64,000 bases of DNA, taken from positions 6,200,001 to 6,264,000 of the forward strand of contig NZ_CP097289.1 in assembly GCF_023498005.1 (NCBI RefSeq), written 5' to 3'. A program made the translations under genes and the position numbers. The DNA is from Streptomyces durmitorensis (GTDB taxonomy: Bacteria; Actinomycetota; Actinomycetes; Streptomycetales; Streptomycetaceae). Shown here one piece after another: positions 9,072 to 62,657 of this stretch. Numbering within the stretch: the stretch's first letter is position 1; every line of letters starts with the position of its first letter. Below the pieces are notes generated by a model. It ran no database searches. It was not told the origin of the DNA and saw only the letters and a program-made list of their open reading frames with translations.

Positions 9072-11696
9072 GTGACCGAGAACACTCAGCAGCAGAATCC
9101 AGCGCCCACCACCGAACTGCCGACCCAGTACGCGCCGGCCGAGGTAGAGGGGACGCTGTACGAGCGCTGGGTAGAACGCGGCTACTTCTCCGCCGACGCG
9201 GCGAGCGAGAAGCCCCCGTACACCGTCGTCATCCCGCCGCCGAACGTCACGGGATCCCTGCACCTGGGCCACGCCTTCGAGCACACGCTCATCGACGCCC
9301 TCACCCGCCGCAAGCGCATGCAGGGCTTCGAGACGCTGTGGCAGCCGGGCATGGACCACGCCGGCATCGCCACGCAGAACGTCGTGGAGCGTGAGCTCGC
9401 CAAGGAGGGCAAGTCCCGCCACGACCTGGGGCGCGAGGAGTTCATCGAGCGCGTCTGGAAGTGGAAGGGCGAGTCCGGCGGGCAGATCTCCGGGCAGATG
9501 CGCCGCCTCGGTGACGGCGTCGACTGGGACCGTGAGCGGTTCACCATGGACGAGGGCCTCTCCCAGTCCGTCCAGACCATCTTCAAGAGGCTCTACGACG
9601 ACGAGCTGATCTACCGCGCCGAGCGCATCATCAACTGGTGCCCGCGCTGTCTGACGGCCATCTCGGACATCGAGGTCGAGTACCAGGACGACGACGGCGA
9701 GCTCGTCTCCCTGAAGTACGGCGACGGTGACGAGACCGTCGTCGTCGCGACCACCCGCGCCGAGACGATGCTCGGTGACACCGCCATCGCCGTCCACCCG
9801 GACGACGAGCGGTACAAGCACCTCGTCGGCAAGCTGATCAAGCTGCCGCTGACCGACCGCTCGATCCCGGTCGTCGCGGACGAGCACGTCGACCCCGAGT
9901 TCGGCACGGGCTGCGTCAAGGTGACCCCGGCGCACGACCCGAACGACTTCGAGATCGGCCAGCGTCACGACCTGCCGAACATCGCGGTCATGGACGAGCA
10001 CGCGGTCATCACGGTCCCTGGTCCCTTCCAGGGCCTCGACCGCCTGGAGGCCCGCTCCGCCATCGTCGGCGCCCTGCGCGCCGAGGGCCGCATCGTCGCC
10101 GAGAAGCGCCCGTACTCGCACTCGGTCGGCCACTGCTCGCGCTGCAAGACCACCATCGAGCCGCGCCTGTCGATGCAGTGGTGGGTCAAGGTCGCCCCGC
10201 TCGCGAAGGCCGCCGGTGACGCGGTCCGCGACGGCAAGGTCGCGATCCACCCGCAGGAGATGGAGAAGCGCTACTTCGACTGGGTCGACAACCTCCACGA
10301 CTGGTGCATCTCGCGTCAGCTGTGGTGGGGCCACCGGATTCCGGTCTGGTACGGCCCGAGCGGCGAGGTCGTCTGCGTCGGGCCCGACGACGAGGCGCCC
10401 ACCGGTGAGGGCTGGACCCAGGACAGCGACGTCCTCGACACGTGGTTCTCGTCCGGCCTGTGGCCGTTCTCCACGCTCGGCTGGCCCGAGGAGACCGACA
10501 GCCTCGCGAAGTTCTATCCGAACTCCGTCCTGGTCACCGGCTACGACATCCTCTTCTTCTGGGTCGCCCGGATGATGATGTTCGGCCTGTACGCGATGGA
10601 CGGCACCCCGCCGTTCCACACGATCGTGCTGCACGGCATGGTCCGCGACCAGTTCGGCAAGAAGATGTCGAAGTCCTTCGGCAACGCGGTCAACCCGCTC
10701 GACTGGATGGACAAGTACGGCTCGGACGCCGTCCGCTTCACGCTGGCCCGCGGCGCCAACCCCGGCGTCGACGTGCCGATCGGCGAGGACTGGGTCCAGG
10801 GCTCGCGGAACTTCGCCAACAAGATCTGGAACGCCACGCGCTTCGCGCTGATGAACGGCGCCACGATCGAGGGCGAACTGCCGCCCGCCGAGCAGCTGTC
10901 GGCGACGGACCGCTGGATCCTGTCCCGGCTGAACGCGACGGTCGCCGAGGTCGACGCGCTCTACGACGACTACCAGTTCGCCAAGCTGTCGGACGCCCTC
11001 TTCCACTTCGCGTGGGACGAGGTCTTCGACTGGTACGTCGAGCTGTCCAAGACGACCTTCATGGGCGGCGGCGACGCGGCGAAGGTCTCGGGCCGCGTCC
11101 TGGGCGAGGTCCTCGACGTGACGCTGCGCCTGCTGCACCCGATCGTCCCGTTCGTGACGGAGACGCTCTGGACGACCCTCACCGGCCGCGAGTCCCTCGT
11201 GATCGCCGAGTGGCCCTCCGACAGCGGCTTCCGTGACGCCGCGGCCGAGCAGGAGATCGAGACCCTCCAGCAGGTCATCACCGAGGTCCGCCGCTTCCGC
11301 GCCGACCAGGGCCTGCAGCCGGGCCAGAAGGTCCCGGCCCGGCTGTCCCTCGACGGCACGACGCTGGCCAAGCACGAGGGCGCCATCCGTCAGCTCCTGC
11401 GCCTCCAGCCGGAGGGCGAGGGCTTCGCGGCCACCGCCACGCTGCCGGTCTCGGGCGCCACGGTCGCGCTCGACCTGTCCGGCACGATCGACGTCGCGGC
11501 GGAGCGCAAGCGCCTCGCCAAGGACCTCGCGGCGGCCGAGAAGGAGAAGGCGCAGGCCACGGCGAAGCTCGGCAACGAAGCGTTCCTGGCCAAGGCGCCG
11601 GACAACGTGGTCGACAAGATCCGCGGCCGCCTCACCAAGGCGGACGCCGACATCAGCCGGCTGCAGGCCCAGCTGGACGGCCTGCCGCAGGCCTAG
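9072..11696 (+). CDS. valS: Valyl-tRNA synthetase
   Basis: 874 residues from GTG 9072. Class I synthetase that charges tRNA-Val in the cytoplasm. The HIGH-type signature is HLGH at 64-67 ([13 protein letters not shown]) and the KMSKS loop is at 531-535. The editing domain lies between them ([18 protein letters not shown]), and the C-terminal coiled-coil arm has [21 protein letters not shown]. The N-terminal 15 residues are polar and variable. The transcript looks leaderless. Leucine codons here mix CTC and CTG, unlike leuS. The stop codon abuts the stop of a convergent gene. Confidence 0.98.
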
Positions 11697-51905: not shown

Positions 51906-51978
51906 GGGGCTATAGCTCAGTTGGTAGAGCGCCTGCATGGCATGCAGGAGGTCAGGAGTTCAATTCTCCTTAGCTCCA
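51906..51978 (+). tRNA. tRNA-Ala (anticodon GGC), copy 1
   Basis: The acceptor GGGGCTA pairs with TAGCTCC (one G-U pair), discriminator A. The anticodon loop ATGGCAT gives GGC. D-arm and T-arm (AGTTCAATTCT) are normal. 73 nt, CCA not encoded. Identical to the copy at 56379. Confidence 0.95.
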
Positions 51979-51981
51979 CAA

Positions 51982-56378: not shown

Positions 56379-56451
56379 GGGGCTATAGCTCAGTTGGTAG
56401 AGCGCCTGCATGGCATGCAGGAGGTCAGGAGTTCAATTCTCCTTAGCTCCA
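56379..56451 (+). tRNA. tRNA-Ala (anticodon GGC), copy 2
   Basis: Identical across all 73 nt to the copy at 51906-51978, including the two bases after the discriminator. The upstream flank differs. Confidence 0.95.
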
Positions 56452-56462
56452 CAGAAGATGAG

Positions 56463-59590: not shown

Positions 59591-59629
59591 ATGCGTGCCG
59601 TACGCCTTCTGCTTAGCGGGCCGCGCTGA
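59591..59629 (+). CDS. Leucine leader peptide of the leuS attenuator
   Basis: 12-residue peptide [15 protein letters not shown] 59591, stop TGA 59627-59629. Three successive leucine codons CTT-CTG-CTT are at 59606-59614; CTT is rare in this genome and read by the same tRNA-Leu(GAG) that reads CTC. It ends 45 nt before a hairpin with a U-tract. This is the classical layout of a transcription attenuator that senses charged tRNA-Leu. As I recall, leucine attenuators before leuS have been proposed in actinobacteria. Confidence 0.75.
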
Positions 59630-59660: not shown

Positions 59661-59673
59661 CATCGGCGCGGCG

Positions 59674-59698
59674 TCCCCTCCTGTGTGAGGGGATTTTT
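59674..59698 (+). terminator. Attenuator terminator upstream of leuS
   Basis: TCCCCTC at 59674-59680 pairs with GAGGGGA at 59687-59693, loop CTGTGT, followed by TTTTT at 59694-59698 and CATTT. A U-rich intrinsic terminator in a non-end position, 58 nt before the leuS ATG. Confidence 0.8.
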
Positions 59699-59756
59699 CA
59701 TTTGGCCGGGACGGTCATTTCCGCAGGCAGAGACGATCGATGGAGCTTTGAGGATC

Positions 59757-62657
59757 ATGAGCGAGACGAATTCTGCTGCCGCCTCCGAGGTGGCCGCACC
59801 GCACCGCTACACGGCCGCCCTGGCCGCCGACATCGAGGCACGCTGGCAGGACTTCTGGGACGCGAACGGCACGTACGAGGCGCCGAACCCGAGCGGTGAC
59901 CTGGCCGCGGACGGGGAGGCGCAGGCCGCGCTGGTCGCCAAGCCCAAGCAGTTCATCATGGACATGTTCCCGTACCCCTCCGGCGCGGGCCTGCACGTCG
60001 GCCACCCCCTGGGGTACATCGCCACGGACGTCTACGCGCGCTTCCAGCGCATGACGGGCCACAACGTCCTGCACACCCTGGGCTTCGACGCCTTCGGCCT
60101 GCCCGCCGAGCAGTACGCCGTACAGACGGGCACGCACCCCCGGGTCTCCACCGAGGCCAACATCGAGAACATGAAGTCGCAGCTGCGCGGTCTGGGCCTG
60201 GGCCACGACAAGCGCCGCTCCTTCGCGACGATCGACCCGGACTACTACAAGTGGACCCAGTGGATCTTCGTCCAGATCTTCAACTCCTGGTACGACGAGG
60301 ACGCGCAGAAGGCGCGTCCGATCGCCGCCCTGGTCGCCCAGTTCGAGAGCGGTGAGCGTGCCGTACCGAACTCCACGCGCGCGTGGCACCAGCTGACCAC
60401 CCAGGAGCGCGCCGACCTGCTGAGCGAGTACCGCCTGGCGTACGCCTCCGACGCCCCCGTCAACTGGTGTCCCGGCCTGGGCACCGTCCTGGCGAACGAG
60501 GAGGTCACGGCCGACGGCCGCTCCGAGCGCGGCAACTTCCCCGTCTTCAAGGCCAAGCTGCGCCAGTGGAACATGCGCATCACGGCGTACGCGGACCGCC
60601 TGCTGGACGACCTGGACGGCCTGGACTGGCCCGAGGCCATCAAGCTGCAGCAGCGCAACTGGATCGGCCGCTCCGAAGGCGCCCGCGTCGACTTCCCGGT
60701 CGGCTCCGGCGACGAGGCCATCACCGTCTTCACCACCCGTCAGGACACCCTGTTCGGCGCGACCTACATGGTCCTGGCGCCCGAGCACGAGCTGGTCGAC
60801 AAGATGACCCCGGCCGCCTGGCCCGAGGGCACCCACGACGTGTGGACCGGCGGGCACGCGACGCCGGCCGAGGCCGTCGCCAAGTACCGCGCGTTCGCCG
60901 CCTCCAAGTCCGACGTGGAGCGCCAGGCCGACGCCAAGGAGAAGACCGGTGTCTTCACCGGTGTCTACGCCACCAACCCGGTCAGCGGCGAGCAGGTCCC
61001 GGTCTTCATCGCCGACTACGTACTGATGGGCTACGGCACCGGCGCGATCATGGCCGTCCCGGCGCACGACAGCCGTGACTTCGCCTTCGCGCGCGCCTTC
61101 GAGCTGCCCATGCGGTGCGTGGTCGAGCCCTCCGACGACCGCGGGACCGACGCCTCCACGTGGGACGACGCGTTCGGTTCGTACGACGCGAAGCTGGTCA
61201 ACTCCTCCGGAGAGGGCATCTCCCTGGACGGCCTGGGCGTCGTCGACGCCAAGGCGCGCATCACGGAGTGGATGGCCCGCAAGGGCATCGGCGAGGGCAC
61301 CGTCAACTTCCGCCTGCGCGACTGGCTGTTCAGCCGCCAGCGCTACTGGGGCGAGCCCTTCCCGATCGTCTACGACGAGGACGGCATCGCCCACTCGCTG
61401 CCCGAGTCGATGCTGCCCCTGGAGCTGCCGGAGGTCGACGACTACTCCCCGCGCACCTTCGACCCGGACGACGCGGACACCTCTCCGGAGACGCCGCTGT
61501 CCCGCAACGAGGACTGGGTCAACGTCACCCTGGACCTGGGCGACGGACCCAAGAAGTACCGCCGCGAGACCAACACCATGCCCAACTGGGCCGGTTCCTG
61601 CTGGTACGAGCTGCGCTACCTGGACCCGCACAACGACCAGAAGCTGGTCGACCCGGCCGTCGAGCAGTACTGGATGGGTCCGCGCGAGGGTCAGCCGACG
61701 GGCGGCGTCGACCTGTACGTGGGCGGCGCCGAGCACGCGGTGCTGCACCTGCTGTACGCCCGCTTCTGGTCGAAGATGCTGTTCGACCTGGGGCACATCT
61801 CGTCCGCCGAGCCGTTCCACAAGCTGTTCAACCAGGGCATGATCCAGGCCTACGTGTACCGCGACAGCCGTGGCTTCCCGGTGCAGGCCACCGAGGTCGA
61901 GGAGCGCGACGGCCAGTACTTCTTCGAGGGCGAGCCGGTCAAGCGCGAGCTGGGCAAGATGGGCAAGTCCCTGAAGAACGCGGTCACTCCGGACGAGATC
62001 TGCGAGGAGTACGGCGCGGACACCCTGCGCCTGTACGAGATGGCGATGGGCCCGCTGGACGTCTCGCGCCCGTGGGACACGCGCGCGGTCGTCGGCCAGT
62101 ACCGCCTGCTGCAGCGCATGTGGCGTCTGATCGTCGACGAGTCGACGGGTGAGGTCACGGTCGCTGACGTCGCGGAGTCCGACATTGCCGAGGGCACGCT
62201 GCGCGCCCTGCACAAGGCGATCGACGGCGTGCGCCAGGACCTGGACGGCATGCGGTTCAACACCGCCATCGCCAAGATCACCGAGCTGAACAACTACCTG
62301 ACCAAGGAGGGCGGCACACTGCCGCGCTCGGTCGCCGAGCGCCTGGTGCTGCTGATCGCTCCGCTGGCCCCGCACGTCGGCGAGGAGCTGTGGCGCAAGC
62401 TGGGCCACGGCGACTCGGTCGTCCACCAGGACTTCCCCGTGGCCGACCCGGCGTACGTGGTGGACGAGACCGTGACCTGCGTCGTGCAGATCAAGGGCAA
62501 GGTCAGGGCGCGCCTGGAGGTCTCCCCGTCGATCTCGGACGAGGAGCTGGAGAAGGTGGCCCTGGGTGACGAGAGGGTGCTGGCCGCGCTGGACGGTGCC
62601 GGGATCCGCAAGGTCATCGTGCGGGCGCCGAAGCTGGTGAACATCGTCCCGGCCTGA
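59757..62657 (+). CDS. leuS: Leucyl-tRNA synthetase
   Basis: 966 residues from ATG 59757 (GAGG just upstream); the frame runs 71 codons further up through the leader and is not coding there. Class I synthetase that charges tRNA-Leu. The HIGH-type motif is HVGH at 80-83 ([13 protein letters not shown]), the KMSKS loop appears as KMGKS at 734-738, and the CP1 editing domain lies between ([21 protein letters not shown]). C-terminal [13 protein letters not shown] is typical. Reading the frame codon by codon, all 77 leucines are encoded by CTG, with no CTC, CTT, CTA, TTG or TTA; other genes here mix CTC and CTG. It is controlled by the upstream attenuator. Confidence 0.98.

Follow-up and report, generated by a model that had tools for sequence, protein, structure and literature searches.

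Absence of tRNA-Leu(GAG) codons from the leucyl-tRNA synthetase gene of Streptomyces durmitorensis and its possible link to the leuS leader peptide

Why should a long gene encode every one of its leucines with the same codon? The question is raised by leuS, the leucyl-tRNA synthetase gene of Streptomyces durmitorensis, in the window analysed here (the whole stretch of 64,000 nucleotides, positions 6,200,001 to 6,264,000 of contig NZ_CP097289.1).

59757 to 62657, forward strand: leuS, leucyl-tRNA synthetase, 966 amino acids (codon count; NCBIfam TIGR00396)

TIGR00396 matches the leuS product in two stretches (900 bits combined). Codon counting over the frame 59757-62657 (ATG to TGA) gave CTG for 77 of 77 leucines and no CTC, CTT, CTA, TTA or TTG, exactly as an earlier note on this DNA had stated. 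Other codon boxes of the gene have no bias toward G (Val GTC 54/73, Thr ACC 32/52, Arg CGC 50/54), and the two other reading frames contain 3 and 25 CTC trinucleotides, respectively (3.1 and 25.9 per 1,000 codons, where the genome averages 4.0 and 20.9), so that out of frame leuS resembles other genes. The avoidance is leucine-specific and confined to the reading frame.

The background sample of 1.825 Mb, which includes the window, comes from a genome of 9.86 Mb, with regions picked partly around the leuS, leuA, ribosomal and ilv/leu loci; 1,188 genes were predicted with a home-made rule combining open reading frames (ORFs) and GC content by codon position, and some of the calls are spurious. 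CTC makes up 19,975 of the 45,529 Leu codons in these genes (44%) and CTT 3.8%. Both are presumably read by tRNA-Leu(GAG), an assignment that we make from wobble rules, and together these "GAG-read" codons account for 47.7% of Leu codons vs 48.1% for CTG. A background of about one third CTC, which the earlier note had assumed, is therefore too low, but its view that chance explains the pattern poorly stands: the probability of 0/77 GAG-read codons is 2e-22 under a binomial model and 1e-12 once gene-to-gene variation is allowed for by a fitted beta-binomial, and chance was rejected as the cause. leuS is the most extreme of the 1,188 genes for avoidance of GAG-read codons and, among the 455 with at least 40 Leu codons, the only one with two or fewer (next lowest fraction 0.26); unrelated genes with equally pure CTG use, for which a check had been proposed, are absent from the sample. 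The lowest CTC fractions among the 886 genes in which CTC and CTG total 20 or more belong to leuS (0/77), leuA2 (4/38) and leuA (5/36). By binomial probability leuA2 ranks 2nd and leuA 5th of the 1,188, behind two short ORFs as well, at least one of which is probably spurious; the third-ranked gene, judged by eye, is probably antisense.

Conservation was examined in 93 distinct leuS genes of Streptomycetaceae, assembled from 67 of at least 80 loci listed, 29 of 30 genomes and the window leuS, less four duplicates; two of the 93 come from records titled just "Actinobacteria bacterium". Only 209 of their 7,025 Leu codons are GAG-read, with none in 49 genes and three or fewer in 75. The GAG-read share is similar along the thirds of the gene (3.0%, 2.4% and 2.8%), and the exceptions are concentrated at a few sites, one of them in 13 of the 93 genes. 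Two genes are without the avoidance, at loci L058 (18/76 GAG-read) and L078 (30/78). The L078 sequence is identical to leuS of genome G010, where leuA is likewise without avoidance (18/40). A loss in G010 through a diverged tRNA-Leu(CAG) was considered and dropped, the readable part of that tRNA looking usual; ARAGORN gave no tRNA-Leu(CAG) at the G010 locus, where the gene is only partly readable. Judged by its spread over these genes, CTC avoidance in leuS is old.

Upstream of leuS lies a putative regulatory region with the following features:

59591 to 59629, forward strand: leader peptide of 12 residues with Leu codons CTT CTG CTT (reading of the sequence; similar leaders in relatives)
59606 to 59614, forward strand: run of Leu codons CTT CTG CTT, the first and third assigned to tRNA-Leu(GAG)
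59673 to 59699, forward strand: intrinsic-terminator-like hairpin with an 8-pair stem, a 6-base loop and a T run

The leader reads ATG CGT GCC GTA CGC CTT CTG CTT AGC GGG CCG CGC TGA, so that the claim that it uses CTT holds for two of its three Leu codons, the other being CTG. The hairpin proper spans 59673-59694 and is followed by the T run, as a predicted terminator between leader and leuS; in the minimum-energy fold it is held beside an upstream helix. A candidate leader with three consecutive Leu codons precedes leuS in 29/29 Streptomyces genomes, the run being CTT CTG CTT in 25 and CTC CTG CTT in four, even though CTT supplies just 3.8% of Leu codons in the genome sample. On sequence grounds the region has the marks of an attenuator, namely a short ORF with cognate codons and an apparent intrinsic-type terminator 5' of leuS, and the leader uses codons that the gene avoids. 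A leuS leader-peptide attenuator was predicted in 2005 for S. avermitilis and S. coelicolor, in the same arrangement of a Leu-codon leader and then a terminator upstream of leuS, and the putative leader in the window fits the published description (PMC1262725). The terms CUC and CTC do not occur in the main text of that paper, figures excluded, and no statement was found there on the choice of codons in the leuS leader or on codon use in leuS and leuA.

Leader and avoidance were then compared at 37 loci outside the main Streptomyces set (four also among the 93), in which GAG-read codons of leuS were set against those of flanking genes; leuS regions were read for 20 of 148 genomes of the class, all with the long form of LeuRS, the short form lying outside the sample. 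Under a strict rule of three Leu in a row, which matches before 14 of 920 other genes, the 19 loci with a leader have a median log odds of -1.82 and the 18 without one -0.43 (Mann-Whitney p 9e-4, uncorrected for ancestry). A relaxed rule admitting two-Leu leaders, set after the upstream regions of L092 and L106 had been read by eye and matching before 16 of 920 other genes, gave -1.82 for 21 loci with a leader vs -0.42 for 16 without (p 4e-5, again uncorrected). A similar hairpin occurs upstream of leuS at 15 of the 37 loci. In these other actinobacteria the avoidance and the predicted leader tend to go together. The leader-bearing leuS genes of L329 and L331, from another family, contain five and seven TTG codons, respectively, and no CTC or CTT. 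Because these two keep TTG, the pattern looks like exclusion of GAG-read codons and not a requirement for CTG, and the wording "CTG only", accurate for the window leuS, is better replaced in general by "no GAG-read codon". At another locus, L100 (Austwickia), a leader-bearing leuS has TTG for 19 of 68 Leu codons, as if TTG stood in for CTC.

The window's genome contains three leuA-type genes, two of which provide a second case:

L119, 12844 to 14571: leuA-type gene
L203, 6742 to 8604: leuA-type gene
L202, 7441 to 9222: leuA-type gene

Two of these, leuA and leuA2, encode 2-isopropylmalate synthases with 531 of 568 residues identical (93%) and 34 of 36 Leu codons shared; because of that identity leuA2 is not an independent case, its codons were probably inherited with leuA ancestry, and the pair counts once. 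The third shares 295 of 567 residues with leuA. The leuA genes of 29 other Streptomyces have 1,073 Leu codons, 129 of them GAG-read, and the leuA leader combines a single CTG with three GAG-read codons in 29/29 genomes. Strong CTC avoidance is lacking in leuB (22/32), leuC (13/38), leuD (8/18), ilvB (16/35) and ilvC (10/28), and no Leu-run leader was found within 350 bases upstream of these five genes here. Because they are not strongly depleted, CTC avoidance is not simply a property of leucine biosynthesis, and it does not extend to all leucine-supply genes.

To account for the pattern, we regard as moderately probable an exclusion of sensor codons, in which leuS and leuA would be induced by a low level of Leu-tRNA(GAG) and would drop the codons read by that tRNA. 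The leuS leader would be translated largely by tRNA-Leu(GAG), at CTT or CTC, inside a ribosome-mediated attenuator. Scarce Leu-tRNA(GAG) would stall the ribosome in the leader, the terminator would fail to form and leuS would be transcribed. The stall, the antitermination and a low level of Leu-tRNA(GAG) at leuS induction are what we infer; what was observed is the codon pattern, conserved as it is, together with the leaders, a terminator-like hairpin and a tendency for leader and avoidance to coincide. Most leuS mRNA would then be found where Leu-tRNA(GAG) is in short supply, so that CTC or CTT in its body would stall translation, and selection would strip these codons from the gene, leaving tRNA-Leu(CAG) as a separate supply for its translation. 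leuA, whose own leader is mostly GAG-read, may have been shaped likewise, perhaps through a switch other than a classical attenuator. The sole requirement would be that sensor and gene body use different tRNAs; tRNA-Leu(GAG) need not be the scarcer one.

This last point matters because tRNA-Leu(GAG) is not scarcer by gene number. In the tRNA-Leu loci of 31 genomes (L210, L211, L212 and L256-L285), 28 genomes carry two genes for tRNA-Leu(GAG), two carry three and one has only contig-end pieces, and a single CAG-like match was found in 29, with the anticodon CAG confirmed only in the window's genome. A single-pattern search for tRNA-Leu(UAG) matched two of the 31 genomes, the window's own not among them, and this tRNA is also not among the typed tRNAs of the window's genome, where 67 hits were only partly typed. 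Judged by gene copies alone, supply of the avoided isoacceptor is not low for its demand. The supply-and-demand part of selective-charging theory is thus unsupported by gene dosage (two GAG copies vs one CAG, with demand about equal). The central claim of the earlier note, that tRNA-Leu(GAG) codons are shunned by the synthetase gene and used in its leader, held up in the sequence comparisons made, with leuA as a second case, though it does not cover leucine-supply genes in general.

A further comparison is offered by the valyl-tRNA synthetase gene in the same window:

9072 to 11696, forward strand: valS, comparison gene, with CTC 32 and CTG 43, and GTC 57 of 66 GTC+GTG codons

As had been stated, valS uses CTC freely, and its Leu codons are ordinary across 29 Streptomyces genomes (CTC 836/2,026). 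Its valine codons in these genomes (L345-L373) are skewed, GTC making up 1,726 of 1,964 GTC+GTG codons, compared with a share of 0.54 in the genes around valS and of 0.69 in leuS. This double contrast, with leuS and valS each skewed in their own cognate codons, suggests a wider rule for which a leader is not strictly required. Other aminoacyl-tRNA synthetase genes were compared in one genome, argS and alaS lying outside the comparison. The type II proS (L318) has CCC at 17/25 vs 117/314 in other synthetase genes (Fisher p 0.005), a second prolyl synthetase gene (L320) 16/33, and the two thrS genes ACC at 21/31 (L315, p 0.09) and 13/14 (L317), respectively; serS (9/20) and glyS (31/32) show no cognate-codon effect in this genome. 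A cognate bias is thus possible in one member of each prolyl and threonyl pair (L318 and L317) and not clear in the other (L320 and L315). Also in the window are two tRNA-Ala(GGC) genes, at 51906-51979 and 56379-56452, which share a strand and are separated by about 4.4 kb.

Several observations weigh against sensor-codon exclusion. The tRNA gene counts do not make tRNA-Leu(GAG) the scarcer tRNA, and E. coli theory rates CUG as a reasonable control codon and not as an insensitive one (PMC1183508). Genome G010 retains both the leuS and the leuA leader yet lacks avoidance in both genes (L306, L186). Five leader-bearing leuS genes outside the main Streptomyces set avoid little (L105, L335, L336, L337 and L340; log odds -0.32 to -0.89), those of L323 and L327 avoid moderately with no leader detected, and the comparison of leader with avoidance takes no account of shared ancestry. 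leuA2 avoids CTC, yet no Leu-run leader was found upstream of it, and the third leuA-type gene has a leader of CTC CTT CTT CTC but uses CTC for 21 of its 46 leucines. valS has its cognate-codon bias with no Val-run leader at any of 29 loci. Published mutants add to this: mutations in the S. coelicolor leuA leader had some effect, in a manner inconsistent with classical attenuation, and mutation of candidate regulatory codons in the S. coelicolor ilvB leader, a mix of Ile, Val and Leu codons, had no effect (PMC1262725). That paper, which describes a Leu-codon leader before leuA, argues against classical attenuation there and prefers a protein-binding LEU element, in which the Shine-Dalgarno box of leuA is paired to the run of Leu codons; CTC and CTT in the leuA leader may accordingly reflect base pairing and not tRNA sensing. 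The leuA and ilvB mutants do not bear on leuS, whose attenuator the same paper predicts as classical.

Other explanations were weighed against the same data. Were leuS merely a highly expressed gene optimised for CTG as the fast Leu codon, its richness in C-ending codons in several other boxes would fit, as would the slightly lower use of GAG-read codons in leuS genes of other actinobacteria with no leader found than in the genes beside them (median log odds about -0.4) and two ribosomal-region genes low in CTC (L116:13888-14724, 1/11; L116:8695-9234, 3/11). This is, however, already contradicted in the present genome and is very improbable. Seventeen ribosomal-protein, rpo, elongation-factor and groEL genes, chosen by eye and taken as highly expressed from gene type, have CTC at 212 of 439 CTC+CTG codons (0.48, the same as the genome), including EF-Tu (16/28), part of EF-G (13/22, itself identified by eye), RpoB (45/88) and GroEL (25/49). 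leuS, at 0/77, does not share the preferred codons of these genes and departs equally from the genome (0.48) and from this presumably expression-matched background (0.48), and ten other aminoacyl-tRNA synthetase genes use CTC at 228/498 (0.46). Causes at the level of sequence, such as acquisition from a genome rich in CTG, biased mutation or CTC avoidance in RNA or DNA, are hardly conceivable, as leuS genes from several families show the pattern. Local composition or strand skew was rejected since the other codon boxes of leuS are normal, avoidance at the RNA or DNA level since out-of-frame CTC has its ordinary frequency, and recent transfer since the avoidance is conserved across leuS of relatives. 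A fidelity explanation, by which CTC and CTT are misread as Phe codons in leucine shortage and are avoided by genes made at that time, would likewise yield avoidance of GAG codons in starvation-induced genes; it is scarcely credible, as TTG likewise differs from Phe codons by a single base and yet is retained at L329 and L331, and as nothing would hold the avoided codons in the leader unless a stall were wanted there.

More weight attaches to explanations that turn on tRNA charging. Selective charging of tRNA isoacceptors was reportedly set out by Elf et al. (2003) and Dittmar et al. (2005), and in its general form genes needed in leucine shortage would avoid the isoacceptor prone to discharge whether or not they have a leader. 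Avoidance in leuS and leuA, and in leuA2 where no leader was found, agrees with this, as do the valS bias without a Val leader and the chance that the leuA leader is not an attenuator. In E. coli starved of leucine, translation is reported to vary greatly for CUU, CUC and CUA, to be fast for CUG and to be less variable for UUG and UUA (PMC3783181). The general form is nonetheless unlikely, in that leuB, leuC, leuD, ilvB and ilvC are not strongly depleted, the avoidance outside Streptomyces tends to accompany a leader, and dosage does not make tRNA-Leu(GAG) scarce. If, instead, LeuRS charged tRNA-Leu(GAG) least efficiently, enzyme shortage would empty this tRNA first and leuS would avoid its codons for its own recovery. 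Such a cause would suit both leuS and its leader codons without GAG scarcity by gene number, but it accounts less directly for leuA, a gene that responds to lack of leucine and not of the enzyme, and we consider it quite improbable.

Neither leuS attenuation, which has already been predicted, nor selective charging, an established theory, is new. No description of Leu codon exclusion in actinobacterial leuS or leuA was found in a limited literature search, most subscription journals lying outside it. Leaders are described as favouring sensitive codons and amino-acid biosynthetic pathways as favouring starvation-insensitive ones (PMC2891978), and the likeness to selective charging is that the leader takes the codons that the gene shuns. 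Unlike the E. coli theory, which is built on tRNA supply vs demand (PMC1183508), the exclusion in leuS is total, tends to track the leader and runs opposite to gene dosage. The leu operon attenuator of E. coli and Salmonella also has a chosen synonym, CUA, as its control codon, and a swap to CUG lowered sensitivity; that control codon is rare, whereas CTT and CTC in Streptomyces are read by a tRNA serving 48% of Leu codons (PMC1183508). The serine codons of SinR in Bacillus subtilis are alike in that synonymous codons within a gene tie protein level to conditions, but in SinR particular codons reduce the amount of protein when conditions are inducing, and leuS instead lacks codons, apparently to stay on (PMC3862929).

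If sensor-codon exclusion is correct, a long and presumably essential gene has been cleared by selection of CTC, the codon used for 44% of leucines in the genome sample, for a reason connected with one tRNA. leuS is a strong natural test case for selective charging outside E. coli, and the result suggests a sequence-only search for genes that need translation during a given amino-acid shortage. We tentatively put forward, as a possibility somewhat short of probable, a general rule in which a gene induced by low charging of one isoacceptor loses all codons read by it and thereby no longer depends on it for translation, with leuS and leuA as two Leu cases and the bias of valS as a third form that has no leader. 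Were this rule true, codon exclusion would reveal both the sensor isoacceptor and its target genes from the genome alone.

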